From NCBI GenBank assembly GCA_947623455.1, contig OX392529.1, forward strand, positions 61,503,686 through 61,567,685: 64,000 nucleotides of DNA, written 5' to 3'. Positions 172-51,542 of this stretch are shown here, piece by piece. How positions within the stretch are numbered: the stretch's first letter is position 1; each line of letters begins with the position of its first letter. Below the pieces are notes generated by a model. That model did no database searches. It was given only the letters and a program-made list of their open reading frames with translations, and had not been told where the DNA came from. The position numbers and the translations under genes were made by a program. Origin of the DNA: Mimachlamys varia. Its lineage: Eukaryota > Mollusca > Bivalvia > Pectinida > Pectinidae.

Positions 172-235
172 CAAGAGCTGGAGCTTCAGGTGTCTTTATC
201 CTGTCGTCTTCTGGGTGTCGATTTGGTGTCTTACC
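172..235 (-). CDS. TOPBP1: TOPBP1 coding exon 34 (last in the window)
   Basis: Twenty-one codons plus 1 nt reading [20 protein letters not shown], like vertebrate ETPIKDSHLIPTPQAPS before BRCT7. The acceptor AACAG is repeated three times at 49-bp spacing. The gene continues off the left edge. Confidence 0.85.
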
Positions 236-3200
236 CTGTTAAATATCATATCTAACGTCAATATACACAGCAGAAACTTGTACTCTGTTAAATATCATAT
301 GGTACGTCAATATACACAGCAGAAACTTGTACCCTGTTAAATATCATATCTAAATTTAGATTTACACTACCTCAGTAGTCTACATTAGTCTACAGGATAA
401 TCTTTCACTAAAAGTTGAGCAAGAAGCATCCAGGTGGTGGGGTTAAAATCAGATCTGCCTACCATTCCTGATATTAAATATATTTTTTTTAATATATGAT
501 GATTGGTGGGGGTCTCTGAAAAAATCCCCCCATCCCCTCCCATGTGGGTAATTTTGAACAGCCTTTATATATGTAGTTACATGATACTGGAATCAATAGA
601 TGATTGTCATCTTTTTAAAATTATACTTAGGAGCTTAGATATAGTTTTGAACTATTAAATATCAGAGATCAATGAAGCAGCCTTACATATTGAGGTAGGT
701 GTGGTACAGGCTTATCCTCCTCCTCTTCCTCCTCCTCCTCCACCTCGGAGAACTCAGCATCCAGGTAGCCCGGGGGCAGGGATGGGTCCTGTGTAGGGCT
801 ACATGCTCTCTCCAGCTTGTGAGCCAACTTCTCCTCCTCCAGTCTGAGGACAAGTGTAGTTAAACAGTCAACACTTACCTTGTCTATTGAGTCACAACTT
901 AATCAAGGGAACTAAACTATAGGTATGGCCTTGTCCAGGAAATCACAGGTGTAGCATGCATTAAACGATAGTCTTGGATGATGTTGTGCATTATAGTTTA
1001 CCAATGACTACTCTTAACACAGAACCATTATATATTATATACAAAGTGTGTGCCAGACTTACCTGCCTGTGGACCCCATTATATATACAAAGTGTGCTCC
1101 AGACTTACCTGCCTGTGGGCCCCATTATATATACAAAGTGTGTGCCAGACTTACCTGCCTGTGGGCCCCATTATATATACAAAGTGTGTGCCAGACTTAC
1201 CTGCCTGTGGGCCCCATTATATATACAAAGTGTGTGCCAGACTTACCTGCCTGTGGACCCCATTATATATACAAAGTGTGCTCCAGACTTACCTGCCTGT
1301 GGACCCCATTATATATACAAAGTGTGCTCCAGACTTACCTGCCTGTGGACCCCATTATATATACAAAGTGTGTGCCAGACTTACCTGCCTGTGGACCCCA
1401 TTATATATACAAAGTGTGCTCCAGACTTACCTGCCTGTGGGCCCCATTATATATACAAAGTGTGTGCCAGACGTACCTGCCTGTGGACCCCATTATATAT
1501 ACAAAGTGTGCTCCAGACTTACCTGCCTGTGGACCCCATTATATATACAAAGTGTGTGCCAGACTTACCTGCCTGTGGACCCCATTATATATACAAAGTG
1601 TGCTCCAGACTTACCTGCCTGTGGGCCCCATTATATATACAAAGTGTGTGCCAGACTTACCTGCCTGTGGACCCCATTATATATTCAAAGTGTGCTCCAG
1701 ACTTACCTGCCTGTGGACCCAGTTAAATATACAAAGTGTGCTCCAGACTTACCTGCCTGTGGACCCCATTATATATACAAAGTGTGTGCCAGACTTACCT
1801 GCCTGTGGTCCCCATTATATATACAAAGTGTGCTCCAGACTTACCTGCCTGTGGACCCCATTATATATACAAAGTGTGCTACAGACTTACCTGCCTGTGG
1901 ACCCCATTATATATACAAAGTGTGTGCCAGACTTACCTGCCTGTGGGCCCCATTATATATACAAAGTGTGCTCCAGACTTACCTGCCTGTGGGCCCCATT
2001 ATATATACAAAGTGTGCTCCAGACTTACCTGCCTGTGGGCCCTATTACATATACAAAGTGTGTGCCAGACTTACCTGCCTGTGGGCCCCATTATATATAC
2101 AAAGTGTGTGCCAGACTTACCTGCCTGTGGGCCCCATTATATATACAAAGTGTGCTCCAGACTTACCTGCCTGTGGACCCCGTTATATATACAAAGTGTG
2201 ACCAGACTTACCTGCCTGTGGGCCCCCGTTATATATACAAAGTGTGTGCCAGACTTACCTGCCTGTGGGCCCCATTATATATACAAAGTGTGACCAGACT
2301 TACCTGCCTGTGGGCCCCATTATATATACAAAGTGTGACCAGACTTACCTGCCTGTGGGCCCCATTATATATACAAAGTGTGTGCCAGACTTACCTGCCT
2401 GTGGGCCCCATTATATATACAAAGTGTGTGCCAGACGTACCTGCCTGTGGGCCCCATTATATATACAAAGTGTGTGCCAGACTTACCTGCCTGTGGGATC
2501 GTCCCAGGTGATCTGTACACTCTGTGAAGCTTCAGGGCCAGAGTTGTTCTCAAGGGACTTGGCTATTGAGCATAAACACAACACACAATATTACTATTCA
2601 AAGTATTTAATAAGTAAAAGACTGCATTTGTCTGGTGATCCAAACGGCTGAACCGTTTTTACAAGAGTTTCAGTTGAGCATTGACAAGGCCTTCATTAAC
2701 TTTAACAGTTCTGCCAGGATTCATATCCGAAAAAAAAAAGTTACATTTAAAAGCAGACAACCCGGTTGATCTGCATTAATACACTGGCCCAAATATAATC
2801 TTAGCAGTGAAATATTGACATAGACAATTTCTATCTTGTTACCAAAAATAATCTTAGCAGTGAAATACTGACACTGAAATTTTTTATTTTGCTGTAAAAA
2901 ATACCGGTAATCTTAGCAGTGAAATACTGACACTGAATTTTTTATCTTATTGTCAAAAATAATCTTTATAGTGAAATATTGGGATTGCAAACTTTTATCT
3001 TTTTGCCAAAGTCTCGCATCGCAAGTTTAGATGGATAAAGAAGTAGGGCAACATTTCTGTACATGATAAATGCCTTGGCCCACTGTTTTGGCTCTATACT
3101 TACCTCCAGTGCTCTGTCTACTGTTCCTTCGCTCATTCTGGCCCGCCTGCTCATCTGAAGGTACAACATATGAGTGGTCACATTAACAATCCACCTACAG

Positions 3201-6200
3201 AGCTTATGACTACATCATTTCTTAATGTAATTTCCTGCGTATTACTCACACTGAGGTTTAGCCTGCAGGAAGTAAATCCAGCGTTTATGATGCAGCTTTT
3301 GTAAAATACATTCCAGATAGCCTACTACTGTTACTTTCAAACACTGGAACATTCAGTCTTTCTCAATTAAAAACAAAAACAGCAAAATGTCCACCTGGTA
3401 TTGATCTCACATTTGTAACCTTAATGTGGACTTAAATCTATGATTAAGTCATTCTAAAGAACACATAAAGATTTAAACGTATTTGACCTCTGTGATGTTG
3501 AAAGTATGTCAATATCATTTTTATTCGAAGACTTTGCTCCAAGAAGAAAAAAAATTGAGGCCAGTGAGCTAGAAGCTATGAAACCACGGACCCAGGCGAA
3601 CAGCCCACGATCTGTTGATGAAGGGCTACAATCCAAATTCCAATGACGTTCTACATACCTTGGAGACTCCAGCGGTTCTGGCGGGACGAGGGGCGACTGT
3701 GGTTACTGTTGCGTCCCTCCCCAGATAGGTCTCCAGATGTCTCCCCTGACATGTTCATCTGTCCACTGGCTGTTACATCAAATAACCATCACCCACATTA
3801 CAATTAAAGGATATTCATCTGTCCACTGGCTGTTACATCAAATAACCATCACCCACATTACAATTAAAGGATATTCATCTGTCCACTGGCTGTTACATCA
3901 AATAACCATCACCAACATTACAATTAAAGGATATTCATCTGTCCACAGGCTGTTACATCAAACAAGAGGCCCAATGGGCCTGCATCGCTCACCTGGTATC
4001 AATCTCTGACATATATTATAGTGTAACCCTAAAGTCCCCTAAAATCTTTTACTGTAAGACATTTAGAAGAACATCTTAAGATTTAAACATATTTTACCTC
4101 TGTGACCTTATAAGACAAAATCATTTTCATTTTCAAATTTTGTTTGGTTTCATCCCAAAACGCTACAAGCCAAATATCATATCTCTAGGCATTTCGGTTT
4201 ATCAGAAGAAGTCGCTCAAAGCTTTTAACCACTGATTTGACAACTGTTACCTTTAATATGGGTCAAGATCATTTTCCTTCCCAAAGTTTGTCGTGCTTCA
4301 TCCAAGGAACCTTTCAGCCAAATATCATGCTTCTAGGGCTTTTGGTATTTCAGAAGAAGTTGTTTAAAAGTTTTAACAGATTTGACCCCTGTGACCTTGA
4401 ATATAAGTCAAGGTCATTCCTTTTCGCAAACTTTGTTGGGCTTCATCCAAGGAACCTTTCAGCCAAATATCATGCTTCTAGGGCTTTTGGTATTTTAGAA
4501 GAAGTCGTTTGAAGGTTTTAACAGATTTGACCCTTGTGACCTTGAATATAGGTCAAGGTCATTTCTTTTCACAAACTTTGTCGGGCTTCATCCAAGGAAC
4601 CTTTCAGCCACATATCAAGCTTCTAGGGCTTTTGGTATTTCAGAAGAAGTCATTTAAAGGTTTTAACAGATTTGACACCTGTGACCTTTAATATAGGTCA
4701 AGGTCATTTCTTTTCGCAAACTTTGTTGGCCTCATCCAAGGAACCTTTCAGCCAAATATCAAGCTTCTAGGGCTATTGGTATTTCAGGAAAAGTCTTTGA
4801 AAAGTTTTAACAGATTTGACCCCTGTGACCTTGAATATAAGTCAAGGTCATTTCTTTTAGAAACTTTGTCAGGCTTCATCCAAGGAACCTTTCAGCCAAA
4901 TACCATGTTTCTAGGGCTTTTGGTATTTCAGAAGAAGTCGTTTAAAGTTGAAAATAGATTTTACCTCACTGTGACCTTGAATATTGGTCAAGGTCGTTTC
5001 TTTTCGCAACCTTTATTTGGCTTCATCCAAGGAAGCTACCGGTCAAATATGAAGTCTCTAAGCCTGACGGTATTTTAGAAGAAGTTGTTTGAAGGTTTCG
5101 ACATTTTTGACCCCTGTGACCTTGAAATTAGGTCAAAGTGAATTTTTTTCGCAAACTTTGTTCAGCTCCTTCCAAGAAATCTACCCGCCAAATTTCATGT
5201 CACTGGGCCTTTCAGTATTTTAGAAGAAGTCGTTTAAAGGAAAAAGTTGACGGACGCAGGACGGACGACGGACGGACGGACGGACGGACGGACGGACGGA
5301 CGCTGCACCATCACATAAGCTCACTTGGCCCTTCGGGCCAGGTAAGCTAATAACCATCACCCACATTACATATTAAGGATATTCATCTGTCCACTGGCTG
5401 TTACATCAAATAACCATCACCCACATTACAATTGAAGGATATTGATATGTCTACTGGCTGTTACATCAAATAGCCATCACCCACATTACACATATAGGAC
5501 AAAAGTCACTCAGTAAAACTTTATTTACAACCCTTACAAAATTTTCCCATTTTTTGTTTTTTGTTTTTTTTTTATATATAAACTTTATTTATTTTACAAC
5601 AATTATGAAACAAGTTATCCAACTTTTATTAATCACTCTGGTTGGCCTGGATGTTAGCATGACAGGGGGTCTTATTGTGGATAACCTGGAGGAACCCCAT
5701 GTGGTCGGGCAGATGACCCCATACACCAATTTTCACGTCCAATCGGGCATCAAACCCCGGCCGCCTTGGTGAAAAGCAAGTGCGCTATCCACTGCACCAT
5801 CCAAATTTTTTTCTAATTCTTTAAAACTTATCCATTACGATGTAAGAAACATTTCTGAGATTCTAAACATGGCCTGGTAATTTCTTCAGGATTTCATCTG
5901 TCACAGCTTTTTCCGAATTTTAACAAAACCAGCCTTGCAGAAAGTAATCTTATCACTTCGGATATTGAATATCCTAATACTTACAGTTTAGCCTTTTACT
6001 TTTTCTCCTGGTGTTTTTCTTGGCCCTGTAAATAAAGTAGTATGTCATACTAGAGAGAAAACACTGCAGGACCTTCATGACGACATCATAGGTATTGTGT
6101 TTTTTTAAATCTATCACATTCATTATTACCCAAAAGATCCAATAGCATTTTCTTTTCTGAACTCTAGTTTGCACGGATTACAGATAGTGATTTTTCTCTT

Positions 6201-9200
6201 CAAATTATTATACTTTTCCTTTTTTGATCAATTTCGAGGATTATTGTGAAAGTTCCTTAAGACAAAAAATAAACCTGTCCCAGTAAATTGTCTATGGAAA
6301 CTTGAAAACACAACGATATCACTTACTTTGATCCCATCATTTTTTCCAGCTGTTTGGAGAGGACTTCTCGCAGCTCTAAAGTCCCACCAATCTCCAGTCC
6401 ACCCTACAGACAGTCAAAACAAGACCTGACTAGGCAAATATCCACAAAAAATGTTCAGCTTAATGATAGGAAAAGTCCTTGTTGTATTTAAAATTTAATA
6501 TAAACATATCGCACAGGGCACAGTCAAGAGGCAGTATAATATATGTTACTTTCTGCTTGCTGAACCAGTAAGTGGTAATGTTATTTTCTATATGCGGAGG
6601 CAGTATAATATATGTTACTTTCTGCTTGCTGAGGCAGTATAGTGGTAATGTTATTTTCTATTTGAGGAGGCAGTATAATATATGTTACTTTCTGCTTGCT
6701 GAGGCAGTATAGTGGTAATGCTATTTGCTATTTGAGGAGGCAGTATAATATATGTTACTTTCTGCTTGCTGAGGCAGTATAGTGGTAATGCTATTTGCTA
6801 TTTGAGGAGGCAGTATAATATATGTTACTTTCTGCTTGCTGAGGCAGTATAGTGGTAATGCTATTTGCTATTTGAGGAGGCAGTATAATATATGTTACTT
6901 TCTGCTTGCTGAGGCAGTATAGTGGTAATGCTATTTTCTATTTGCGGAGGCAGTATACTATTTGTTACTTTCTGCTTGCTGAGGCAGTATAGTGGTAATG
7001 CTATTTTCTATTTGCGGAGGCAGTATACTATTTGTTACTTTCTGCTTGCTGAGGCAGTATATTGATAATGTTATTTGCTATTTGTGGAGGCAGTATAATA
7101 TTTGTTACTTTCTGCTTGCTGAACCAGTAAAGTGGTAATGTCATTTTCTATTTACGGAGGCAGTATAATATTTGTTACTTTCTACCCATGTAGACAGTAT
7201 AATGGTTCTGTTTCTTTCATCTTGTATCTTTGCAGATATTTTACAGAAGGCATTAGGCCAGTTCAGCAGACTAACAAGACTACTGATATTGGAATTTTAT
7301 GAAAAATTCACAATAACCCAGAATAATGTTTAATTAGTGGCAGTACCGATTCCTTGGTGCCACCTTCGTGTTCCATGGCCTCGTCACCTGACCTCTGTTC
7401 CTCCTGTTTTGGTGACGTTTCTGGCTTAGTCACCTGACCAGGTGAGGCTGCTGATCTTAATGGTGAGATTTCCTGTTTAGTATCAGACTGCTGGTCCTCA
7501 CTTATTGACAGTGCTGATTTAGAATTAATGCTCTGGTCAGGTTTTGTTGATGGCGACAGTCGTTTTGAGGATGAAGTAGATGTAGTAGTGATATTTGAAC
7601 TAAGGTCAACCTCCTCTCCCTTCCTCGACCCAGCTCGCACTGATCGTCGGCTAGCTCGACCAGGTGTCTCTGTTCGCTTACTGGTCACCACAGACTTCAG
7701 ACATACCACAAATACAAACATTAAATAGAGCTAAGAAAATACAAAATTATATAGAGCTTAGAAAATACAAACATTATATAGAGCTTAGAAAATAAAAAAT
7801 TATATAGAGCTTAGAAAATACAAACATTATATAGAGCTTAGACAATTCAAACATTATATAGAGCTTAGACAATACAAACATTATATAGAGCTTAGAAAAT
7901 ACCAAATTATATAGAGCGAACACAATGTGATCCATAATCAATCAAGTGTTTGTAACTTGTGGACTATGGTGAACCCAGTAGTAAATTTATCAAAATAAGG
8001 AAATGACTTTATGACTTCAACAATGCATCTTCTGACGGTCGTACAAAATTGATGCCATATTGGTAATAAAATTTGTTTTCAAAATTTACATTCTTGAGAA
8101 AGCAGTAATATGGAGTGTTGAATTGAAAGTGTAGCTTACCAAGGAGAGATTGGGGTTAAAAGTGTGTGGAAACAGGGACTCGTCAACCCTGGCCATTTGT
8201 TCCTTACACTGAAACACATATCACAAACATTAAGTACCTAAAACACAACACCTACCTAGATTGATAACAAAATTAACATTTTTTTAATTTTATCAATATT
8301 GGCAAAGTCTACTTTCAGAGTTGAGTTTGATTAGTTCAAGATTCCAGGTATTATATACAATCAGGGCTTGCGTTAAAAAATGCCATGCTGCCACATGGCA
8401 ACACTTGTTTTCTTATAGTGACAACAAATTCAAGTTTGGCAATATCTTTTGGCCACATAATTTTTACATACAATAAAATGATTAATTAATAAACCAGTAA
8501 TTTGTTGTCATGACTTAATTTGGCAACTATAACTACTTCATATGTAAGTTGACCGGGCGGGTAAAACCACTGATTCTATCGGGTCTTGGACAATAGGCTA
8601 AGTGGGATCGCCATGCTTCACCAGAAAATTACTGACACTTTTTGCACCACAGTTCATAGTAGGGTATGTAGGAATGACGACTCCTCTCTCCTGTTTTCTC
8701 TACTTTTCCTTCTCTATATACTTTATCCATTCTACTCATTTTCCTATCTTTTCTTATTCTGCTGTAAACCTATCTTCACGGTAGTAAAACGGACCCAAAA
8801 CAACTCAATCAATCAATGAATCAGCTAACACTGTCAGTTTCCTGACTTAACCCAAGCAGGACTGAAAGAATGTAAAGCAACATATATATACATATGACAT
8901 CACAATTAGACTATTTAATAACCAATTTGTTAATTGTCACAGTTGATCATTGTATTCCTACCATTTGTAGCCAGTGTGGTGAGACAATGATCTTGCCCTG
9001 GTCACGAGCCAATCGGAACTCTTTTGTTGTGTCATTTGCACGTCCCTGTAATTGAAAAACAGGTTATACTTGTCTGATGTGTTCTAAAAATAGATTAAAT
9101 TTTAATGAATTCAATCACATTTTCAAATTTAACTAAACTTACATTTTGGTTTGAAGTATGTACATGTATTGCACGAGTTGCCAATCCTCACATGGAGTGT

Positions 9201-12200
9201 TTAACAAGTTCAGCATTCACAACTACCTGTATGTAGCATGCTGATCTATATCTAGATGTAGTGAGTACAGAGTTGTCTGCCCTTACCTGGAAAAGCCCAA
9301 TCAGCCAAAAAAACATTTGCCATTAACTCATTACTGAATTTTCTGCCCTTACAGGGAAAACGTAGTGAATACTGAGTTGTCTGCCCTTAGCTAGAATACA
9401 TTGTGAGTACTTAGTTGTCTGCCCTTACCTGGAATACATAGTGAGTACCAAGTTGTCTGCCCTTACCTGGAATACCTAGCGAGTACTGAGTTGTCTGCCC
9501 TTACCTGGAATACCTAGCAAGTACTGAGTTGTCTGCCCTTACCTGGAATACCTAGCGAGTACTGAGTTGTCTGCCCTTACCTGGAATACCTAGCAAGTAC
9601 TGAGTTGTCTGCCCTTACCTGGAATACCTAGCGAGTACTGAGTTGTCTGCCCTTACCTGGAATACCTAGCGAGTACTGAGTTGTCTGCCCTTACCTGGAA
9701 TACCTAGCAAGTACTAAGTTGTCTGCCCTTACCTGGAATACCTAGCGAGTACTAAGTTGTCTGCCCTTACCTGGAATACCTAGCGAGTACTGAGTTGTCT
9801 GCCCTTACCTGGAATACATAGTGAGTACCAAGTTGTCTGCCCTTAACTGGAATACCTAGCGAGTACTGAGTTGTCTGCCCTTACCTGGAATACCTAGCAA
9901 GTACTGAGTTGTCTGCCCTTACCTGGAATGCCTAGCGAGTACTGAGTTGTCTGCCCTTACCTAGATTACATAATGAATACTGAGTTGTCTGCCATTACCT
10001 GGAATACATAGTGAGTACTGAGTTGTCTGCCCTTACCTGGAAATGAGTGAGTACTGAGTTGTCTGCCCTTACCTGGAATACATAGTGAGTACTGAGTTGT
10101 CTGCCCTTACCTGGAAAACGTAGTGGGTACAGGAATTGTCATATGCCCAGCGGTAGTCGCCTCCAAGGTCGGACACAATGTTGTTGAAATCTGATTGTTG
10201 AGATGAGAGCTTCTTATTGACAACGATGATGACCCCATGAAGGGGAGGAACCTCCTTTTCCACCTTTGCGCCCACCAAAAAATCAATGCAGAGTTTTAGG
10301 GAGAGTAAAGTGAACAGAATTATGCCAAAAATCAAACTGAAAAGTGTTTGTCCTCTGCATAAAAACATTAAAAGGTATCCAGTACAGTGGACTCCACTTA
10401 TCATCACCCCTGTTAATATCACATTCTCCTTTATATCATGGTTTTCCCAAGCACCATTTTTCTCTATATATAATCTATGTAAATTAATTTGGTTAATATC
10501 ATGTATTTTGAAGTGAATTCCTCTTAATATCATGTTTTTTTCACCAATCATATGAAATATCCAGAAAATGATGTCATTTCCATTGATTTCAGATACAACT
10601 TGTACAAAGTGTAAAGAAAATAAAAAATAACCCAAAAAATGATTTCTAATTGAAATAATACTAAGATATATATTGAAACATCTTCATATGTACATTGGAT
10701 TTCTTAGTTTTAGTTATGGAGATTGGAAATACACTAGATTTAGTGGAAAAACATGTTTCTCTAAATGTCACATTCCTGTTAATATCATGTTTTTGTCGGA
10801 CAAATGCAACATGATATAAAGAGGAGTGCACTGTAACAACTATTACAATAGCAGAAGTGCCTAAGCAAAGACAGGTCACATCTATAAACAGGTGTTACTT
10901 TGGATAGGTACTGTCTAAAATCCAATACCTGATGAGCTACATCTTTAGTCTGAAGCATACCAACCTTTACTGGAGTTTTCTCGTCCATGGGCTCGCCTTC
11001 TTCCATGTTCTTCAAACGTTTTTCTATCTCTATAGTGTACAGCTCATCCAAAGGCTACAGAAAACATTAAGCATTACATATTAATGTAACAGATTGATGA
11101 GGAGAAAATCTCCCTGGTCGAGACGGTAGGTAGAGGCTAGTCACTTACCAAGACAACATTCTGTTCAGACTCACCAGACCGGCTATCTATACCTAGCTAC
11201 AGGAAACATACCTTTGGCTATTTATGCATTTTGTTTTCGCGATTAACTGGTTTTCAATATTAGTCTTTGGTTAATGATGTCAAAACCAATTAATCAGTTA
11301 CCCATTGCCAATCTTCATTTTTCCCCATGAAAGCAAAAACGAAAGTGCAATTATTTCATTTCAACTGATTTCATTGACATATTGATGCTAGTTGTCAACA
11401 GGATTGGGCAACAGGCCCAGCCTATATAAGCCCTCTCCATAATAACAATACACTGGTGGCAAAAATGTATATGGAAATATATATATATTAATAAATTAAG
11501 TATGTTATAATGTAGCCCATTAATTAAACAATCAATGAATCTAATAGTTTTTGAATGATAATTATAAATCATAACTGTTTACTGAAATGAAAGTTACAAC
11601 AAACATATATACAGCAGTTCTGTTATATCTATTGCTTATGGAAATATAATCTTATGAATTTAGGCTATTGAATTTTTCAGTAGGAGATAAATAACTCTGG
11701 CCCAGCCAGAAGGTACAGAGTGTAGGCCGCACTGTAATTATAATATATGTGTCCCGACTGTTACTATATAAAGCTAACCTCACACTTACCAAGCTTGTCT
11801 TCCTCCTGCTTGCCTTACGATGCCCCTCTGGGGTCTCCAGCCTGGCAACGACATCCTACAACACAAAGTTCTATTCTCAAATTGCTGTTTGAAGCTATAA
11901 CGTCAAGTACATTATTCTAAGAAATACAGATATTAAGAAAATTATTTCACCAGAGTATGGTAATGAATGTCTAATCCCTTCTATTCATAGAACAAATGTA
12001 TCGTCATACAATAAGTGACTGTTTCTACTTACAGTAAGGTCAAACACGGGGTGGAATTCTTTGTTCAGATCAAGGAAGCGTCCCGGAGAGGGAGTTTGGA
12101 GTCCCGTGCGGAATCTCGATCCACCCTGTGGAGTGGTGTCCACCTCTGCCTGCAGGGCCTAAAATACAATACAGGATTCATAGTGTGTTCTTCCATAAAA

Positions 12201-15200
12201 ACAAGAGGCCTAGAGGGTCTGTATCGCTCACCTAGATTAACATTGGTATCTAGGTAATTGTGGTAAAATATTATCAAACAAGAGATCCCAGATGGATCAT
12301 GGCACCCACCATTGTTTATTTTTCATTCATTCTTAGAAAGATGGATCTTTTCCTTTCTAATTTTAACTTTCATTGATGTATTTAATCTTTCTTCTATGAA
12401 TTTCCATTGAAAATTGACAATAGCTGAAGGAAGGTCTACTGTCAGGAGTTGTTTTGTTTTTATAATCAGTTTCCAAATCCATCTCGTATTTCTTAAACAA
12501 TAACCATAATGTCAGTCAACATACAAGATTGTCGTCTGACGGCTATATTTTTCCCATGGAGCAGTCCAAAAACCATGCTCAACTAGGGACCGAACAGAAC
12601 ATGCTTATGAAATTTGGAAAGAATCCCTCCAGTTCTTCTCAAGAAATAGCGATCACAAACTATCACTGTCAACATCCAAGATGGCTGCCTCTCAGCCATA
12701 TTGTTTATCGGATCTGTCCAAAAATCGATCATTCACAGCTAGGCACCAAGAGGAACCTACATATGAAATTTGAGAATGATCTATCCAGTATACTTCTCAA
12801 GAAATATCGATAACAATCTATTTCTCACAAATCCAAGATGGCTGTCTGTCAGACATTTTGTTTTTCTGATCAATCCCAAAATCAATACAGCACAACAAGC
12901 CACCAAGGGAAGCCTGCATATGAAATTTGGGAAAGATCCATCCAGTACTTCTCACTAATAATGGTAACAAAAATTGTAGACTGAAAGACAAATCCTTGAA
13001 GCATATCTGTATAAATAAAAGTTTTAGTAAATGGGCGAGTATCTCCACTGTTTTCAAGTTCAACTAAGAAATTGTGTCCCCAGGGGTGTGGCCAGACCAT
13101 GACATCAATGCCAATAATACGATCATTATGTTTGACTCTTTATGTCCAGCAACTTTATATATAGTTTTGGGTTGGGGATCTCAACCAATTCAAAGTTGTA
13201 ACACAGGGTTTAAGCCTGCAAGTATGTCTCAGACCGTGGAATCAAATCTAAAATCATGATTTTTTTCTTCTTGGCTCCGCTCCTCAGCCCCCTAGGTGGT
13301 CAGTCCAATCGTTAGCACAATTTTGAATCCTGAGCACCTAGGGATGCTTCCTGCCAAATAAGGTTGATTTTCGATCAGTGGTTATGGAGAAGAAGTTGCT
13401 TAAACCAATATAGCTAAATAACCCTTTCTGGCCCTGCCCCTCAGCCCCTAAGGGGTCAGTCCCACCATTATTACAACTGTGAATCCAGAGCACCAAAGGA
13501 TGCTTCCTGCCAAAATAAGGTTGATTTCCTACCAGTGGTTATGGAGAAGAAGTCTTTAAAAAACTTGTTGACGGACGGACGCCACAGTATTGCATTAGCT
13601 CACCTCAGTCCTTCAGACCAGGTGAGCTGTCACCTCTTCTCCATAACTGTCTGAACGGGATAGAAAATTGACCATACAGTTTTCAGGTATTACACTGGTC
13701 GAAGCCTTACCTTTACCCTCTCGTTTACAGCAGCTCTGTTCAGCCTGCTCACGTTCTCCTTCTGACTGCCCTGGTACGGCTTGTCTACAGCTCGGGACTC
13801 CTCTGTACCAACGTCGGCCTGCCTACTAGTTTCCTTCACATTCTCCAGGACTCTCGCCACTTTACTGGGCCTGGTGCTGTCCCCGGTCGTTTCTTCACAG
13901 TCGAGAGATGAGCTGGTGCGTTTCAGACTCTTTCTACCCCAAGTTTCCTCCACTGGCACATTCACTGTAGAAATGTCATTTGTTGGAACAGCATCCTGCT
14001 TGTCAAAAACGCTGTTCTCTTGTTTAACCTCCACCCTCTCTATAGATGCCTCATTAGACTTTCTATGATCGGATATTTCTACTTCACCTGTCCCTGTGGC
14101 CTCTTCCTCTACCTCCATTTCACCCGAGGCATTAACTTTATTGTCAATATGAAACTCTTCCTCTTTTTCTCTTTTCCCAGACTTGACACAAGCAAACAAC
14201 CACCTAGAATTACACACACACAAAACAAAATTACTACGATGATATCAGTAACTTGTAATGATAACTTCCACTGCATTTGATCTAACTTATTTCTCACTTT
14301 GTAGCAACTGTGCAACATGTTATAACTCAAGCCTTGTAATATTCCATCTGGAGCCCAAGTTTCACATCAAGATTTTTAGTTTGAGAGGGCCAGTACCTGT
14401 TAGACACAGCGGGGATGTTCCATTTCTTGGCGGCCTCGTACTTGGAGCCCTCAGCCTCTCGCACAATGAGGTGTGTACTGGGTTGGAGTCCCTTACTAGC
14501 CTTCCTCACAAAGTAGTCCTGACACCTGGTCACAGTGAAACAAAAGACGGTGATAAATGATATATTACTATTGTATAATAAATGTATGGACACTTGATGT
14601 GATTGAGAATTATGCCTCAGTTCTCACTTTGAGGACCTGACATTTACTTGGATGTGATCTAGATTTACATGGCGGGTGTCCCCCTATGAAGCAGAAAATG
14701 CTTACCCTACCGGTGTAGCATGGTAATTTGAACCCCATGGTAAATTTACCCTGGGGTCAAAATACTATTATGGTAAAATGTAACCCCCCCCCCCCCCCCC
14801 TCTTATTAATATCACTATAATGGGGTTTTTTTCATATATAATTTCACATATTTTTATTAGCATGGGGGGGTGTCATTTCACCTTAATGGTATTTTGACCC
14901 CAGGGCCATTTCACTATGATTCAAAATATCATGCTACACCGGGTATTAAATGAGAATTCTCGTTGGTTTTTCTCAGAGGTACTTACTTGGCACCCATGAG
15001 TTCAGCAATGTGCATCAGACAATCTCTCTCTGTCCCAGAGTAGCCACTGTTGGAGAGATAATAAAGGTTTATCATTTACAAATTAAACTTATTTCAATTA
15101 TGAAACAAGGTATCACAAACAATACAAATCTACACACTTCCCTACATAATGAAGGTTTTAAAGAACATACTCACTTGTATTGTACCTAACAGACTGTAGA

Positions 15201-24200: not shown

Positions 24201-27200
24201 GGTCGGCCTGTAACAGGTATTGACTCATGATGTCCTGGGTATTGTGACATTCCCTAACCTTGTGACCAGCTTACCAGCGTCTGCCTGTAACAGGTATTGA
24301 CTCATGATGTCCTGGGTATTGTGACATTCCCTAACCTTGTGACCAGCTTACCAGGGTCTGCCTGTAACAGGTATTGACTCATGATGTCCTGGGTATTGTG
24401 ACATTCCCTAACCTTGTGACCAGCTTACCAGCGTCTGCCTGTAACAGGTATTGACTCATGATGTCCTGGGTATTGTGACATTCCCTAACCTTGTGACCAG
24501 CTTACCAGCGTCTGCCTGTAACAGGTATTGACTCATGATGTCCCGGGTATTGTGACATTCCCTAACCCCTTGACCAGCTTACCAGGGTCGGCCTGTAACA
24601 GGTATTGACTCATGATGTCCTGGGTATTGTGACATTCCCTAAACCTTGTGACCAGCTTACCAGGGTCTGCCTGTAACAGGTATTGACTCATGATGTCCCG
24701 GGTATTGTGACATTCCCTAACCCCTTGACCAGCTTACCAGGGTCGGCCTGTAACAGGTATTGACTCATGATGTCCTGGGTATTGTGACATTCCCTAACCC
24801 CTTGACCAGCTTACCAGGGTCGGCCTGTAACAGGTATTGACTCATGATGTCCTGGGTATTGTGACATTCCCTAACCCCTTGACCAGCTTACCAGGATCCG
24901 CCTGTAACAGGTATTGACTCATGATGTCCTCCATATCTGTGTCCTGGTGGTCAGCCTCTGGTACTTTGTCTTTAGTCACAGGCTCCTTAGCTGTCAACTT
25001 CCTGAAATATTTAAATTAGATCATTTTCCACTGTACAATCTAGCCATCGGACATGTGTCAACTTGATCAATTAATTTTACCATGGCATCTTTGGTGTAGG
25101 TACACAATAACTTATCTGCTGTATTTTAGCATAATGAAAACTAGTACATACTGTCACCATGTTAATTTTATCATTACGGCTCTCCTTCACTTTTAATAAT
25201 TATCTATAAACAATAGGCTGTTAACTTAAATTTGCTTTCATAAAATCTCCTTCATTTACAATATTCCCCAGTATAGTGTACAGTCAAACCTGTCTATAAA
25301 GACCGCTCAAGGGGAGACAGAAAAACGGTCACTATAGACAGGTTGCCTTTATAGACAGGTCGAGATTTTTGGACCAACCACTTTAATTGAAAATGTCATA
25401 AATGACTTGTCATTAAATAGGGCTTTCAGTATAACATTTTCAGAAGTCAAACTTTTTGTTTTGAAATGTATTCTTATAATGTTATTTTTAGGTTTAAATC
25501 TATATTTTTTAAAACATCTTAAAATGGTATGATGAATGCCCTATTAGATAATATTCATGTTCATTTTTTTACATTTGTGAATTCTTGGTTGAGTGTGTTG
25601 TTCTTTTTCTAAAAAAATCATCAAGTCGGAATGATTATGATAGCACCAACCAGGTGAGTCGGCATTCAAGGTTAATAAAACAAACACCTTTGAGTAGGAA
25701 ACTTTGAAAACATAACACAATGCCTCGTTAATTAGGCTTGACATTGATTGACACCTCGCGCGAGTTACGATGCAGATCTGTTGACACCAGCGAAGGCACA
25801 GGTCTAATATATACTGATAATTGAAATAAACGATGTTTTCACGGCAATATCATTCATAAATTATTCAATTAAATCTTACATAAGACTTAATCTTCCACGT
25901 TTTCTATAAAATGAACAATTTTGTAGTCTCTGCGTCTAGACATCGATAGAGTCGGCAGTGTACTGGGTTGACGGTAATTCTGACGATTACGGCCTAACAC
26001 ACGGGTCGCGAACAGTCCTGCATAAACGAGAACACGAATGATGCATCGCTGTTCAATCGTATCATATGACTACACCGATACTGGAAAGCACTACGCGTTA
26101 TTCAGGTTAGGAAATAACCTAGATCGTCGCTATCAGTAGCCAATCAAAATGCAGGATATTGTCGAAAACTGATGCAGCAGTGAATGGGCTCACCGGAAAG
26201 TTTTCACTTGTCATAAAATAGTAATATCTTCAGTCAATGTGTTTTACAACTCATATTTTCAACATTTATAGTATTTTCTTCTAGTGAATCATGTACGCAA
26301 ATACCGGACATTTTGTACGGAGCTGTACATATGCGACGGGTTACCGGAACGGCTGACAGCCAAATGTGAGATCAAAATATGTTCACCCGATCGTGAAATC
26401 GGTCGTTATAGAAAGCGAACTAGCGACCGTCGTTCCAAAATTACCGGTCGTTAGCCACATTAGACAGGTGGTCGTTAAACAGATGATCGTTATATAATGA
26501 AATATCACGGGGAATCTGAAAATCGGTCGTTATAGAAAGCGAACTAGCGACCGTCGGTCCAAAATTACCGGTCGTTAGCCACATTAGACAGGTGGTCGTT
26601 ATACAGATGGTCGTTATATAGTGAAATCTCACGGGGAATCTGAAAATCGGTCGTTATAGACAGGCAGTCGTTATAGACAGGCGGTCGTTAGAGCAGGTTT
26701 GACTGTAATTCTAATCAGAAAATTCCCCAGTATAGTGTAATTCTAATCAGAAAATTCCCCAGTATAATGTGATTCTAATCAGAAAATTCCCCAGTATAGT
26801 GTGATTCTAATGAGAATATTCCCCAGTATAGTGTGATTCTAATGAGAATATTCCCCAGTATAGTGTGATTCTAATGAGAATATTCCCCAGTATAGTGTAA
26901 TTCTAATCAGAATATTCCCCAGTATAGTGTAATTCTAATCAGAATATTCCCCAGTATAGTGTAATTCTAATCAGAATATTCCCCAGTATAGTGTAATTCT
27001 AATGAGAATATTCCCCAGTATAGTGTAATTCTAATAAGAATATTCCCCAGTATAGTGTAATTCTAATCAGAAAATTCCCCAGTATAGTGTGATTCTAATC
27101 AGAATATTCCCCAGTATAGTGTAATTCTAATCAGAAAATTCCCCAGTATAATGTGATTCTAATCAGAAAATTCCCCAGTATAGTGTGATTCTAATGAGAA

Positions 27201-30200
27201 TATTCCCCAGTATAGTGTGATTCTAATGAGAATATTCCCCAGTATAGTGTGATTCTAATGAGAATATTCCCCAGTATAGTGTAATTCTAATCAGAATATT
27301 CCCCAGTATAGTGTAATTCTAATGAGAATATTCCCCAGTATAGTGTAATTCTAATCAGAATATTCCCCAGTATAGTGTAATTCTAATGAGAATATTCCCC
27401 AGTATAGTGTAATTCTAATAAGAATATTCCCCAGTATAGTGTAATTCTAATCAGAAAATTCCCCAGTATAGTGTGATTCTAATCAGAATATTCCCCAGTA
27501 TAGTGTAATTCTAATCAGAAAATTCCCCAGTATAGTGTGATTCTAATGAGAATATTCCCCAGTATAGTGTGATTCTAATGAGAATATTCCCCAGTATAGT
27601 GTGATTCTAATGAGAATATTCCCCAGTATAGTGTAATTCTAATGAGAATATTCCCCAGTATAGTGTAATTCTAATCAGAATATTCCCCAGTATAGTGTAA
27701 TTCTAATGAGAATATTCCCCAGTATAGTGTGATTCTAATAAGAAAATTCCCCAGTATAGTGTGATTCTAATGAGAATATTCCCCAGTTTAGTGTGATTCT
27801 AATGAGAATATTCCCCAGTATAGTGTAATTCTAATGAGAAAATTCCCCAGTATAGTGTGATTCTAATGAGAATATTCCCCAGTATAGTGTAATTCTAATA
27901 AGAAAATTCCCCAGTATAGTGTAATTCTAATGAGAATATTCCCCAGTATAGTGTAATTCTAATCAGAATATTCCCCAGTATAGTGTAATTCTAATGAGAA
28001 TATTCCCCAGTATAGTGTAATTCTAATGAGAATATTCCCAAGTATAGTGTAATTCTAATCAGAAAATTCCCCAGTATAGTGTAATTCTAATCAGAAAATT
28101 CCCCAGTATAGTGTAATTCTAATGAGAAAATTCCCCAGTATAGTGTAATTCTAATGAGAAAATTCCCCAGTATAGTGTAATTCTAATGAGAAAATTCCCC
28201 AGTATAGTGTAATTCTAATGAGAATATTCCCCAGTATAGTGTAATTCTAATCAGAATATTCCCCAGTATAGTGTGATTCTAATGAGAATATTCCCCAGTA
28301 TAGTGTAATTCTAATCAGAATATTCCCCAGTATAGTGTGATTCTAATGAGAATATTCCCCAGTATAGTGTGATTCTAATCAGAATATTCCCCAGTATAGT
28401 GTAATTCTAATCAGAAAATTCCCCAGTATAGTGTAATTCTCACATGTAAAATCATTACCCTTTGATTTTGGGCGACAATGGCAGATCTGACGCAAACCCC
28501 GGACAGAGGAACGGTTGTTCGTCCACAGTTTGTCCCTGTCGGTAACACTCAGCTAGCCAGACTGCTCCGACAACATGGGGCCTGTAACCAAAACAACAGC
28601 CAATCACCCCCCTACATGTAGCTACACAAAATCCCTATTCATATTCATCACCATCCTTTGTAAATGATCTGATGCCTTTGAAATGACTCGGTTAATTGTT
28701 AAATAAAGAATGCCGAAAGATGTCATGTTTCTCCAGCATATTTTTGTTTTCCATGATGTATGCATGCATGTGGAAAGATCATTCACAAAGATAGCAAATA
28801 AGAGGACATCTATTGAAAGTACTTCCAAAACATTGTTTTGCGCATTGTAAAATTACTGGACAATCTTCTGAAAAATGTGATATTAGCGCCAAATGTAAAC
28901 ACATTTTAAAATAGACTGGATAAGTATGGGGTCCAAGAGAACCAGGAACTCCTATATATAATTTTAGATCTGAGATACATCAATGACACACATAACATCA
29001 AAATAATCTTTTTCACAAATTTTTCAATGCTATGATTTTGAAAAGTGAAGAGGATCTAATAGACCCTGCACTGGAATATAAAAATGTTACAATCAGGAAT
29101 TCAAATCAAATGTCTTGCAATGTTGAAAAGTAATTTAATATTTATATACTTACTTTAATGTTGAAAAGTAATTGAATATTTATATACTTACTTTAATGTT
29201 GAAAAGTAATTGAATATTTATATACTATATAATTTTTTGTGCCAATGCAGTCACTTCCAGCTGTCTTTTTTGGCAGATTATTCTTCCAATTACTTTTCGT
29301 AAAAATAAACAGCCAAAAAACACTGTCACACTGTGGTAAATCACTACATTGAAGCATAAAAACATGGACAGAGCTTTAAGTCTACCGTAATAATGAAAAT
29401 TCATATTGGAAATAAAACAGCAGTTCTTGGATCAGGAGTAGAAATAACCAGTTTTTTTTCTGTGTGACCTAAATTCGATTGGGTTAAATGAAGCTGTCTT
29501 ACCTAAATGTTGCTGCTTTGAGAAGGTCCATGTCTTTTTCTACACGCTCCCCAACAATTACATGGCTTACATTCTCATTCAACTGGTTCAGCCTAAATTG
29601 AAATAAATATTTATAATTAACATATACATTTGTATATTAATCAATACAAAGCTGAGGATTTCATAGGAGCTGCCTTATCAGATGGTAACTACTAGTCCTA
29701 AGTCACCTGGCTAATATCTCCATATGTGTGTATGTAATGAGACAGTGCTTTTAACATCTTTTTAAGATCTATCATGTGACCTTGTGATACTGTAGATATA
29801 AACTAAGATCTATCATGTGACCTTGTGATACTGACCGTGTTCCCCCACCAGCGTTGATGACTTTGCGTACTTTCTCTAGTGCTTGTCCTCTAAACCCACT
29901 CAGGAATATCTACAAAATAATACACAGTCACAACATACATCAAGTTATTCTTATTTCAAACAATGATATGATAATCAGTAGGTATGTCTTGGAGAGTGGG
30001 TAGCCCACACTCGTTGAATGATTTGGAGAAAGGTTTGTGGGAGGGGGGATACATACTTTTGCGGGAGGGTATTAAGATATTTTTGGGAAAGTGGATAGAT
30101 GGAAGGTACTTGTTGGAGAAGGAAAAATAATTTTGACAGGATGGAAAAATGTTTTTTGGGGGATGGACAGACATTTTTGGGAGGATTGGAAAATGCTTTT

Positions 30201-33200
30201 TGGGAGATGGACCGATATTTTTGGGAGGATGGAAATGTGTTTTTGGGGAGGATGAGTAGGTATCTTTGGGAGGATGGAAAGATGATTTCATAAGGACAGT
30301 TTGATGTTTCTGGAAGATTCCTACCTTACAACCATCAAGAAAGAGGTCGACAGGGGGTTGTGTCAGGTCTATACCATTGAGTGTGGTGTCTGTATCCTCC
30401 AATGACTTGTGTGTGTGGTTAGTGGTGGTAGCTGCAGTGTCATTGACGTGGTAATTAACCGAAACATTGGCTATACAGCTCAGATCTGCAATGGTGGATG
30501 CTCGTGCTGTTGATAAAAAACAGATTTAAATCGGTTACAATCATCAAAACAATACTTAATGAATAATCTTAAATCAATACTATGACCAAAGTTATCTTAT
30601 ACTAAAAAGAACACTCTACTCCCTTATAATTCTACTCCCTGATAATTACCCAGCAAAAAAAACTCTTACTAAGGGGAACTGAAAAGCTAGAAAGTTCTGG
30701 TCCGAGATCGAACACTCTCTTTTCCTAAACTGCACTTATTCTGGAGAAATTTCTGTTCTGGGGCAGAGATTTTGCCCAGAGATCTATCGTTGGGAACATT
30801 CTTTTTTGGGGCACAGATTTAGCCTGGAGATGTATCTTTGGGAAAATTCTTTTCTGGGGCACAGATTTAGCCCAGAGATCTATCTTTGAGAACATTCTTT
30901 TCAAGAGCACAGATTTAGCCTGGAGATCTATCGTTGGGAACATACTTTTCTAGGACATAGATTTAGCCTGGAGATCTATCTTTAGGAACATTCTTTTCTG
31001 GGGCACGGATTAAGCCGGAGATCTAACTTTGGGAATGTTCTTTTCTGAGGCATAGATTTAGCCCAAAGATCTATCTTGAAGAGTATTCTTTTCTGGGGCA
31101 CAGATTTAGCCTGGTGATCTACCTTTCTCTTTCTCCCTTTACCTGAGATCTAACACACCTACCCATTATTCTTTGATCTATGGCCCGAGACCCAACTATC
31201 CCTCCCTATACTTACTGTGAGGAACATCCTTCTCTGGTGTGGAGGTTTTGGCCTGCGACTTGTCTTCCCTATACTTACTGAAAGGAACATCCTTCTCTGG
31301 TGTGGAGGTTTTGGTCTGTGACTTGTCTTCCCTATACTTACTGAGAGGAACATCCTTCTCCAGTGTGGAGGTTTTGGCCTGCGATTTGTCTTCCCTTTAC
31401 TTACTGTTAGGAACATCCTCTGGTGTGGAGATTTTGGCCTGTGACTTGTCTTCCCTATACTTACTGTGAGGAACATCCTTCTCAGGTGTGGAGGTTTTGG
31501 TCTGTGACTTGTCTTCCACCGTTACTTTGTATTTTTCTGTATCCTGACAGAAGCCCTTCTCTAAGGAATCGTACAACCACGCAGTTTTCACAATGTTCAG
31601 CTTCCACTTTTTCGCAAACTCGTATTTCGTACCTAGTAAATGAAAATTAATATCAAATAGACATAAATGAAGGTAAAGCATTTTTATTACTTACACAAAT
31701 TACTGTATCAATTATTACATGTCTGGGTGTATTTGTGATCATGTTTAAAGCCAAACTTACAATCACAAAATATTACACATTTTTGAAATTTATGAAATAT
31801 GTGACATTATCAAATTAAATTTCAGGTCAGAAAGCGAGAGTTTATATGGCATATACAATTTGATAGTAAAGTTGCAAAACCAAAATTGAAGACAAGTAAG
31901 ACATGAAATTCCCTTTTTGAAATTTTGCACAGAGCATTTAGCTTACAAATGATGCCACAAAGCTTCGTAGATTTTTTTTGAAGACATTTATGTCAAAAAC
32001 AGAGAAACCTGGAGCTATTTGTATGGTAATGTGTATCATATTTCTCCATCATATTGCAAAACTGAGATAAATCAGAATATTGGAGCCTGTTGTTTTATAG
32101 TATTTGCTGTTGTGTAGACACAAACTTCAAAGCTGCCTCATGTTCTCTGTGTCCATAATATACAACCACTTGAAACATACGTTTCTGTCATTACCCATGC
32201 TAGCTGTTGTGTAAAACTCGTTATAAAGTGTGGACACCTTGCCTTCAGTTTTAACTGGTGTTGATTAATATAAACGAACCCTACCTTGAGGGCGCAACAG
32301 AGAAATCTCCAATCAAATGGGTTATATTCTTAGTTGTCTAACCTGAAGTTCTGCCGAGGGGTTGACAATCAAGAATATAACCCGAGGGTTGGAGATTTCC
32401 CTGTCACAACATCAAGGTAGGAGATGATTAGTTTTATCAATGCAACACAATGCTGACTTGGTATGATTGAATTGTTGACTTGGTGTGATTGAAATGTTGT
32501 CGTGAAGTCATTACATTGTTGTCAGCTCGTGCTATCTGTCATAACCTATAGGGGGTGACAGAGAAATCTTTGAACAGATAAAAGAGGAGAAATAAAATCT
32601 GTTAATGATGGGAGAAAATGTTATCTAACCTGACCTGTTCAAATGTCAACCTTAAAACCAACCACCCTTAGGAAGCCAATCCCGCCGTTACTGTAGAAAT
32701 GGTCCTTCAATTTTCTTTGCAAACTTACCTTTTGGCTTATTAATAATTAGATGTGTGCATTCATTGACCTTCATTTCACCTGTGTATTTCCCACCTGAAA
32801 GTAATATCAAGGTCATACAATGGTTTCATTTCCAGCATCAGCTCAAAAGTTTTATACATAACACGTCACAACAAGCTATTATGCATGTTGTAACTACATA
32901 ACTTGCTGCAGATGACAGCAACTGTCATCATCAGACAATTCTACAAGAGTGGTAAGTAAAGGAGGCTACAAAAGTCAACAGAACATGACCTCTCATGATT
33001 GAGACCTGTATCTATAGCAACGTAATTATCCAGAGATCATAATTTAACTCCTTTACATGTACCATATAGGACAAGATAGTAACAGGATTATCATTTTATC
33101 TCGGTATAAATAGAGAACAATATAAAATCTAGTAACCCCCTCACCCTCGGAGTGCAAGAGTTTTACACACTAGTTATATGACAGTCAGATATTGATTAAC

Positions 33201-36200
33201 AGGATTATCATTTTATCTCGGTATAAATAGAGGACAATATAAAAGCTAGTAACCCCCTCACCCTCGGAGTGCATGAGTTTTACACACTAGTTATATGACA
33301 GTCAGATATTGATTAACAGGATTATCATTTTATCTCGGTATAAATAGAGGACAATATAAAAGCTAGTAACCCCCTCACCCTCGGAGTGCATGAGTTTTAC
33401 ACACTAGTTATATGACAGTCAGATATTGATTAACAGGATTATCATTTTATCTCGGTATAAATAGAGGACAATATACAATCTAGTAACCCCCTCACCCTCG
33501 GAGTGCATGAGTTTTACACACTAGTTATATGACAGTCAGATATTGATTAACAGGATTATCATTTTATCTCGGTATAAATAGAGGACAATATAAAATCTAG
33601 TAACCCCCTCACCCTCGGAGTGCATGAGTTTTACACACTAGTTATATGACAGTCAGATATTGATTAACAGGATTATCATTTTATCTCGGTATAAATAGAG
33701 GACAATATAAAAGCTAGTAACCCCCTCACCCTCGGAGTGCAAGAGTTTTACACACTAGTTATATGACAGTCAGATATTGATTAACAGGATTATCATTTTA
33801 TCTCGGTATAAATAGAGGACAATATAAAATCTAGTAACCCCCTCACCCTCGGAGTGCATGAGTTTTACACACTAGTTATATGACAGTCAGATATTGATTA
33901 ACAGGATTATCATTTTATCTCGGTATAAATAGAGGACAATATAAAATCTAATAACCCCCTCACCCTCGGAGTGCATGAGTTTTACACACTAGTTATATGA
34001 CAGTCAGATATTGATTAACAGGATTATCATTTTATCTCGGTATAAATAGAGGACAATATAAAATCTAGTAACCCCCTCACCCTCGGAGTGCATGAGTTTT
34101 ACACACTAGTTATATGACAGTCAGATATTGATTAACAGGATTATCATTTTATCTCAGTATAAATAGGGGACAATATAAAAGCTTGTAGCCCCCTCACCCT
34201 CGGAGTGGATGAGTTTTTTGACATCGTTGCGTTCCTGGGGGTCCAGTCCAGACACCGTTATGACAAGTCCCTTAAAGATTCGACATCTGTACTCGTCTAG
34301 ACCCGAGTCCATTCCATGTACAGCTCTGTAAACAAAGCCATGAAAAAAGAATTTAGAAAATCCAAACAAGGATCACACAAGTTGTCAGTTACTTTCAATT
34401 GAGGTACGTCAGACAAAGGGGATCCTACATTAAATTTGAGAATGATCCGCCTGGTACTTCGAAAGAAATAGCTATAAAACACTTTCATTTTCAAATTAGA
34501 GAATGGCAATCTGTTCGCTATACTAATTTTCAAATCCGTCCGAAAATGGCACAATTCACGACTAGGGACCAACGGGTAACTCCATATAAAATTTGAGAAT
34601 GACCCAGCACTTTTCAGACAAAGTGACAACAAGAATTGTTTACCGGTAAGTGATTTGAATAGCCCACTATCTGCTGATAGGATAAAAATGTCATTTAATT
34701 TACAGAGAAATATTGAAAGCTTTGCTGCTGATCCACAAATTTACATTTGAACAATCTTACTCTGCTACAGCCTCAGCTTTGAAATTATGATCATTTGAAG
34801 ACAACTAAGGCATTTGTTTACTAAACTGCTGTAGTAAAACTTATTTGAACAATCAAAACCATGATCATAATTTGTACTGTGTTTTTTTTTTATAGGTATA
34901 ATACATTTTTTATTGTTTCACTATTACCTGGTCTGTGAGATCTCCCATACTTTGAACACCCATTCCGCGGACATGATCTGTTTCCCGAGACTCGCTGCAA
35001 CCTATAAATAGAGAAAACTGGATGAACAAAGCAGATAATATGTACTTATCTACAAAACAAGGATCCTAGAGGGCCTGTATTGCTCACCTGGATTTTTGTC
35101 TAATCACAAGAAAATCTTTTCAAAAGCAACTTTGCAAATATTTCAATATATTGAGTCTCTTTGGCTTCAGAATGTTCCAAACTAAAACAACGTTGAAATA
35201 CTCTATTCCAACATGCTAATAGTCAAATTTCACCAACAAGGGCCTAATGATATTGTGGAAGACCTTGAAGGTCAAAGTAAAATATTTAGCAACCTGTTGC
35301 TTGTACCTACTAGACCAGTATCATTACTCTGGGCCACCTGAAAATCAGTTGTTTCAAGCTTGTTTTTAAATATTTGACACCTGTAACCTTGAATGTAGAT
35401 CAAGGTAAAAAAACATTCATATTGACCATGTTTACAACAAATTTATCGCTATACTGACCACGTTTACAACAAGTTCATGACTATATTGTAGTGTTTTTAA
35501 TTCTCCACCAAGCACACTATCACTAACATTTCAAATAAATATATATTGTGAATTTCATATACAAATAATGCCTACAAGGTAGAGCCACTGTTAGGTCCGC
35601 TCAGGTAAATATCAACACTAATTAAAAATCACCTATCGTAATGCCAGGCAGTCCTGATTGCCACACCATTTATTTAAAGTATCTTATTTTAAATTCAAAT
35701 ACAATATGTATCACAGCATCACTCAGGGCCCTAGTCATGACACAGTACCGGAACATGTCCTAGATACCTGATACTTCCTGCTGCCCACCTCCCCGGCTAT
35801 CAGGTGGGTAACATCCTCTGTGAAATCCTTTCCAACCATTCCGCCCATTACTTCTATCTTCTCGTGCACCTCATCCTAAAATAGTAAGTTTTAACAATCA
35901 CACACTTACAGTCTACGATGTTAGACAATAGTCCAATGCCATGAAAAGTAATATTCAGTTCGGACCAGTGGAAAGTCCTTGAATTTCAATATATTTGTTA
36001 TAATAAAAACTGCATTTTGCTTGTCTGGACTAGTGCTTGAAAATGTTGATGTCACAGACTGCACATATAGTACCTCATCCTGAAATTGACGGTTAACAGT
36101 CACAGACATTTATAAGATAACTAAGCCAGTAATGATCACTGCCAGAATGTGCTACAAACATTTTAAGTCACATACATAGTCACAGACTGTACCAGTCACA

Positions 36201-42840: not shown

Positions 42841-51542
<8,702 letters not shown>

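Follow-up and report, generated by a model that had tools for sequence, protein, structure and literature searches.

Why would the introns of a gene be filled with tandem copies of the gene's own splice junctions? The question is raised by TOPBP1 of the bivalve Mimachlamys varia, a gene on the minus strand of a 64,000-nucleotide stretch of contig OX392529.1 (assembly GCA_947623455.1; C3:61503686-61567685), referred to here as the window. An original prediction made from the letters of the window described eight minisatellites in this one gene that are built from exon-intron borders. Exon maps of TOPBP1 and of other genes, together with word counts in the whole genome (975 Mb in 71 contigs), reveal that TOPBP1 is an ordinary case of a pattern that recurs genome-wide. 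The arrays are very probably 'mirages', the name under which the accessible text of two reports describes exon-intron boundary minisatellites in a few genes of amphioxus (lancelet) (PMC3087553, PMC3902484). Such arrays would be tandem duplications that straddle a border, have expanded into the intron and are hidden by splicing, with the donor zone favoured about fourfold and acceptors not favoured.

Junction-containing arrays in TOPBP1

The gene model was built from tblastn searches with ten homologs, followed by a spliced model aligned to homologs, and was completed with sequence from 20 kb to the left of the window (L007). It comprises 42 stop-free, phase-consistent exons with GT-AG introns and extends from window coordinate 38611, the position of the ATG, to -6476 (45,088 base pairs (bp)). 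Exons E1-E34 occupy 172..38611, with the E34 donor after 172, and E35-E42 lie in L007. At 39.8% identity, the predicted protein can be aligned with homolog P0003 over almost its entire length, and separate blocks of it align with a Solemya homolog (49 and 52% identity). Among named proteins, those of Haliotis, Solemya, and Lingula score highest, followed by others that include Mya. The window part of the gene harbors 34 donors and 33 acceptors, where 68 junctions had been counted.

Arrays were detected with Tandem Repeats Finder (TRF) on the window and on the whole gene, which contains 30 arrays, 26 of them with a period of at least 20. A splice junction lies inside nine: the donors of E7, E9, E14, E17, E25, and E32, and the acceptors of E31, E34, and E41. 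TRF and the homology-based exon model recover all eight arrays described originally. The exon numbers given for six of them stand (E7, E9, E14, E25, E32, and E34), and the exons called 16 and 30 are E17 and E31. The ninth, at E41, lies outside the window and is an out-of-sample recurrence of the pattern. Among arrays with a period of at least 25 and a score of at least 200, 8 of the 16 in the window part contain a junction, as the earlier estimate of about half implied, and so do 9 of the 19 in the whole gene, against 3.23 expected (p=0.002; p 0.001 to 0.008 at other thresholds). In the null model, extra copies are first deleted from the gene, seeds are then placed on it, and wholly exonic seeds are left out. 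The first estimate of the chance expectation, one array in eight, falls a little short of the ∼one in six obtained here, but the excess is real.

The structure of the arrays is observed directly, and all lie on the minus strand. The E7 donor array (33080..34217) consists of 9.7 copies of a 117-bp unit in which the last 20 exonic bp are included (exon end at 34198), and GT is retained in 9/9 copies. The E9 donor array (31203..31517) has five 63-bp copies with 53 exonic bp (exon end at 31465); on the gene, the top-scoring TRF period is 123, about double that unit. The E14 donor array (22542..24930; exon end at 24892) repeats 77 bp, 39 of them exonic, 31 times, and 29/30 spare copies carry a donor within 2 bits. 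In the E17 donor array (16469..17755; 83 bp, 13.2 copies, 17 exonic bp, exon end at 17739), the exon end and GT are present in the TRF consensus unit, and just two copies align well to the exon-adjacent copy. The E25 donor array (9332..10130; exon end at 10111) has 21 copies of 38 bp with 20 exonic bp, the donor being within 2 bits in 16/20 spare copies. The E32 donor array (1036..2497; exon end at 2487) has 31.8 copies of 46 bp with 11 exonic bp, ending in CAG followed by GTAAGT, and the donor is within 2 bits in all 31/31 spare copies.

Of the acceptor arrays, that of E31 (3754..3962; exon start at 3769) holds 3.5 copies of 60 bp with 16 exonic bp, and 2.4 further copies of its unit lie at 5349..5490 in the same intron, with other repeats between the two stretches. 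Within 4168-5490 the unit reappears past an array with a 145-bp period, as if other repeats had grown or inserted inside an older array. The E34 acceptor array (232..350; exon start at 235), the weakest of the eight, has 2.4 copies of 49 bp and 4 exonic bp, and the E41 acceptor array (window -4554..-6006; L007 3994-5446) has ∼29 copies of 49 bp. Unit lengths in the eight window arrays all differ, as originally stated (117, 63, 77, 83, 38, 46, 60, and 49 bp in the order given here), and the independent origin proposed for them is supported.

Six further arrays of the gene end within 40 bp of a junction without containing one. The partial cases suggested earlier are represented by arrays that adjoin but do not straddle the E13 donor (26704..28440; 54 copies of 32 bp, starting 18 bp inside the intron), the E10 donor (30115..30288; 44 bp, starting 36 bp after the donor), the E28 acceptor (7710..7917; 27/53 bp, ending 15 bp before it), and the E18 acceptor (16279..16390; 22/44 bp, ending 14 bp before it), all on the minus strand.

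Prevalence in other genes

The exons sampled are those of TOPBP1, 60 kinesin-motor exons, 6 BRCT loci, and 8 helicase exons, giving 115 donors and 115 acceptors. The scope is one assembly and small exon samples, with several exons per kinesin gene and some ends set by hand. The kinesin exons are the first 60 eligible, in E-value order, of 131 matches from a whole-genome family search, counted exon by exon; matches with internal stops were excluded, as were a cluster on contig C10 (7.99-8.95 Mb), taken to consist of paralogs, and two small contigs, C33 and C60. Flanks of 450 bp were taken for 40 exons and of 220 bp for 20. To locate exon ends, homology was combined with splice motifs; six donors were placed by hand (L050, L056, L070, L084, L086, and L087), all of them array cases in which the best motif is weak or possibly belongs to an inner copy, as at L056, whose donor (GC followed by GTAAGT) has a motif score of just 1.9.

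Arrays straddle 11/60 kinesin donors, and the exon end and donor are repeated in the aligned copies (up to nine printed per array). The weakest donor case is L070, with 7 exonic bp and two aligned copies. Two of the 60 kinesin acceptors are straddled: in L043 the start of a P-loop exon is present in ∼ten copies, and L049, the weakest acceptor case, has two. Two of the 6 BRCT donors lie in arrays (24 copies in L004 and 21 in L002), and no acceptor array is present among these 6 loci. With the 6/41 donors of TOPBP1, 24 junction arrays are found in the samples, at 19/115 donors and 5/115 acceptors (binomial p=0.007), so that the reported preference for donors extends beyond the gene in which it was noticed and the arrays are not peculiar to TOPBP1. 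The frequency of donor arrays, counted directly in the sampled exons, is about one in six, with a 95% interval of 10-25% if exons of shared genes are treated as separate.

Some observations stand beside these samples. L004 (1-1554) is a BRCT exon followed by copies of its own end plus donor, which we take, by eye, to resemble REV1. In the cluster at C10:7.99-8.95 Mb, kinesin matches of equal or near-equal score occupy five places in less than 1 Mb, which may reflect either a recent duplication of the region or a peculiarity of the assembly. The small contigs bear long, strong kinesin matches (C33:9806-10723 and C60:3089-4021, one with two stops) and are possibly foreign DNA.

Donor excess and whole-genome word counts

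In a pooled null set of 46 arrays in TOPBP1 and 56 merged kinesin stretches, one-unit seeds were placed at random on sequence with extra copies removed, wholly exonic seeds being excluded by assumption. Arrays straddle 17 donors against 4.36 expected, a 3.9-fold excess that none of 20,000 draws reached (kinesin 11 versus 2.49, TOPBP1 6 versus 1.86). Acceptors display no excess, with 5 against 5.06 expected (kinesin 2 versus 3.18, TOPBP1 3 versus 1.85). The bias toward donors is a direct observation, and the expectation that junction overlap exceeds that of random positions holds for donors and fails for acceptors. When array edges are binned as straddling and at 0-20, 20-50, 50-100, 100-200, 200-450, and >450 bp from the junction, the donor side gives 17, 4, 2, 1, 2, 1, and 1 and the acceptor side 5, 3, 0, 1, 3, 5, and 1. 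Donor-side edges pile up at the junction and thin out within ∼50 bp; acceptor-side edges have no such slope beyond the first 20 bp. The ratio of straddling to non-straddling arrays is 17:11 at donors and 5:13 at acceptors (Fisher p=0.04).

The whole-genome test counts triples of an exact word spaced 20-50 bases, with the pattern read backwards as control. The donor word CAGGTAAGT forms 7862 triples (3497 + 4365) versus 175 reversed (63 + 112), a 45-fold difference. A word in which one base breaks the GT, CAGGAAAGT, forms 1054 (787 + 267) versus 294 reversed (255 + 39), and the acceptor word TTTTTACAG forms 371 (151 + 220) versus 82 reversed (55 + 27). Because matches overlap within arrays, separate loci were also counted among the places listed, with CAGGTAAGT places less than 1 kb apart merged: 10 loci for CAGGTAAGT in the first 8.0 Mb of contig C1, and 3 for CAGGAAAGT and 2 for TTTTTACAG in all 65.8 Mb of it, the count of 3 treating two places separated by 1.9 kb as one. 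The donor word thus has ∼27 times as many loci per Mb of C1 as the GT-breaking word, unadjusted for word frequency. Extrapolation from the 8 Mb gives, as a rough inference, ∼1200 arrays with a perfect-consensus donor genome-wide. The comparison of donor with acceptor word is indicative, as acceptors are less concentrated in one word than donors are.

State of the copied splice sites

The copies were compared by gapped alignment, pooled over 17 donor arrays. Donor columns are variable in 26/153 cases and other columns in 160/972 (Fisher p=0.91), and the conservation rank of the donor window averages 0.46 (Wilcoxon p=0.75); the copied donors are, by direct observation, unconstrained. A constraint suggested by ungapped copies disappeared with gapped alignment, window ranks, and the pooled 17-array test. 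Even so, the donor in 122/141 spare copies lies within 2 bits of its exon-adjacent counterpart, with L061 at the other extreme (0/5). The position of the donor within the unit is uniform (Kolmogorov-Smirnov p=0.74, 17 arrays), which gives no sign that the GT itself anchors the breakpoints, and such anchoring is rejected. The idea that units are kept in reading frame is rejected as well, since 4/17 donor units are multiples of three. Because donor columns are unconstrained, donor position is uniform, and few units are in frame, the copies look inert, like intron, and are probably spliced out from the exon-adjacent donor. Homologous proteins are continuous across the E7, E17, E25, E32, and E41 junctions with at most a small gap (the E25 region is missing from one of six homologs), and the exon-adjacent site is therefore the one most likely used.

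Proposed origin and points against it

The origin that we consider very probable would begin with a random tandem duplication whose segment straddles an exon-intron border, followed by ordinary growth of the repeat into the intron, presumably by slippage or unequal exchange. Splicing at the exon-adjacent donor or acceptor would hide the extra copies, which would persist and drift because they are hidden. A donor duplication would leave the first donor in place. An acceptor duplication would add upstream AGs that may be used first, and would more often be harmful and weeded out. Upstream AGs would thus explain why acceptor cases are fewer, while leaving the ∼fourfold excess of donors over random unexplained. 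In the stretches sampled, the 5' splice-site zone gains or keeps duplications at about four times the rate of random positions, which would need either transcribed exon-intron starts that are locally fragile or duplication at an exon-like rate, visible only where splicing conceals the outcome.

Several observations weigh against this origin or narrow it. In 362 kb outside arrays (an exon-rich sample), CAGGTAAGT occurs 6 times, CAGGAAAGT once, and TTTTTACAG 7 times; word frequency therefore accounts for some of the difference from the broken word, whereas it does not account for the difference from the acceptor word. In the kinesin exons alone, the difference between donors and acceptors is modest (11 versus 2, p=0.02). 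None of the 8 helicase donors and none of the 8 acceptors lies in an array, as judged with short 170-bp flanks, so the rate may vary between genes; these exons come from the upper part of 92 matches, with long open frames, stop-bearing matches, and the small contig C63 left out. That splicing uses the exon-adjacent site is most likely, as read from protein homology. Arrays also favour units rich in guanine and cytosine (GC), a GC content of at least 0.5 being preferred ∼threefold. This preference explains part of the donor excess, but the corresponding weight is just 1.30 at donors versus 0.94 in intron windows, and base composition is rejected as a full explanation. Finally, when the units of 83 arrays are scored for donor motifs with no exon map, motifs scoring at least 9 show no excess in any sizeable group: 2/40 in neighbouring stretches, 0/15 in random stretches, 2/24 in TOPBP1 stretches, and 1/4 in BRCT stretches, with controls of 4.9, 3.8, 7.9, and 10%. 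At a score of at least 8, the TOPBP1 stretches give 6/24 versus a control of 11%. Most minisatellites here are therefore not donor-derived, and the case rests on the exon maps and the whole-genome word counts.

Alternative explanations

The alternative that survives best assumes no special donor zone: duplication would proceed at a high, exon-like rate near exons, exonic and many acceptor cases would be purged, and donor cases would survive. It agrees with the preference for GC-rich units, with acceptors being straddled at but not above the random rate though equally exonic sequence is involved, and with a null model that excludes wholly exonic seeds by assumption. Wholly intronic arrays, however, also crowd the first 50 bp past donors (6 versus 5 in all further bins) and do so without exon sequence, which leaves this account a real but minority prospect.

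It is improbable that certain arrays are part of the coding sequence instead of copies within the intron. In L086 (33 bp) and L043 (45 bp) the reading frame meets no stop along the entire array or almost all of it, and in the E9 array it stays open for about one further copy, with a stop near 31397. Against this stand the small share of units divisible by three, the conserved P-loop that the repeats of L043 would break, and homologs that show no repeat at E9.

Slightly less probable still is that spare donors are useful, as redundant sites, in U1 recruitment, or as buffering, and are kept by selection, a cause that the original prediction had entertained. The close resemblance of most spare donors to the exon-adjacent one is what this account would want, but donor columns vary like all others, the apparent constraint was lost with gapped alignment, and L061 retains no similar donor.

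Chance combined with detection bias, also raised at the outset, has some force, since a fifth of the sequence is minisatellite (67 arrays with a period of at least 20 and a score of at least 100 cover ∼46 of the 219 kb scanned in L001-L006 and L009-L028) and some arrays must touch junctions; the random level at acceptors and the flat donor-motif test of array units fit it too. The donor excess at the sampled scale already speaks against it, and so do the recurrence of the result in exons chosen by homology and the excess of donor-word triples over the reversed and GT-breaking words, so that it is very unlikely. Mobile or introner-like insertions, the latter named among the sources of new introns in the available text of PMC4974935, can be dismissed as scarcely credible, as the junction units consist of the own gene's exon end and, judged by eye, show no kinship from locus to locus.

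Significance and other features

It is difficult to learn from one gene at a time how a splice site is chosen among identical donors, how minisatellites are born, or how introns lengthen. A genome with border-straddling arrays of this frequency would supply very many natural replicates for splice choice, for the effect of copy number on splicing noise, and for the rate of donor duplication. It is conceivable, if somewhat short of an even prospect, that germline 5' splice sites are duplication hot spots, that thousands to tens of thousands of donors lie in self-derived minisatellites, that donors are thereby a main engine of intron growth, and that the spliceosome is put to a natural, genome-wide test, having to select one of up to dozens of near-identical donors in a row. 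For annotation, there is a warning that repeat masking would hide real exon ends.

Further features were noticed in passing. Very long arrays of several kilobases each lie at 52966-58324 and 59093-62894 in the window (36/40-bp and 31-bp units), and SMARCE1-like HMG-box exons were recognised by eye from open reading frames at 44893-46179 on the plus strand. In L020 (2430-3574), a 48-bp unit repeated 23.8 times carries a strong donor motif (score 11.4) and is possibly a donor array in an unmapped gene.

Comparison with known systems

A human interferon-induced gene is reportedly endowed with a donor-site minisatellite, a single human case in which the donor lies inside the repeat as it does here. 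Human genes in segmental duplications harbor internal tandem repeats at exon-intron boundaries (PMC2812944), which resemble the present arrays in being border minisatellites that alter intron structure. They differ in that, by the accessible part of that report, they concern recent human paralogs, are in half of the cases located within coding exons, and yield alternative transcripts; a donor excess is not mentioned there. The Rogers model of intron gain, as outlined in the available text, invokes tandem duplication of an AGGT-bearing segment (PMC4974935) and thus shares duplication around splice signals, but it creates a new intron inside an exon, whereas the introns here appear to grow.

The closest likeness is with the mirages of lancelets (PMC3087553, PMC3902484, in the parts available), so that the phenomenon, for which eight cases in one gene were thought new in the original prediction, is not new as a kind. 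The tandem units here span the exon-intron border, and both kinds of border are affected. In lancelets too, units span 5' or 3' borders, lengths differ, and many copies carry AG/GT signals (PMC3902484, accessible text). No report of such arrays in a mollusc is among the matches listed, which are mostly titles and abstract openings from open-licence literature. The arrays thus belong to a kind already described, here in a phylum that is probably new for it, and the prevalence estimate and donor bias were not seen elsewhere in the open-licence literature found. Where the lancelet reports, as far as their text is available, describe a border copy that escapes homogenisation, the exon-adjacent copy of E7 departs from the array consensus at 6 sites. 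Splicing is reported as undisturbed in lancelets and would be so here. Unlike the lancelet arrays, which the same texts place in few genes, those of M. varia occupy about a sixth of the sampled donors with up to ∼32 copies per array, and by measurement they exceed the random expectation at donors but not at acceptors.

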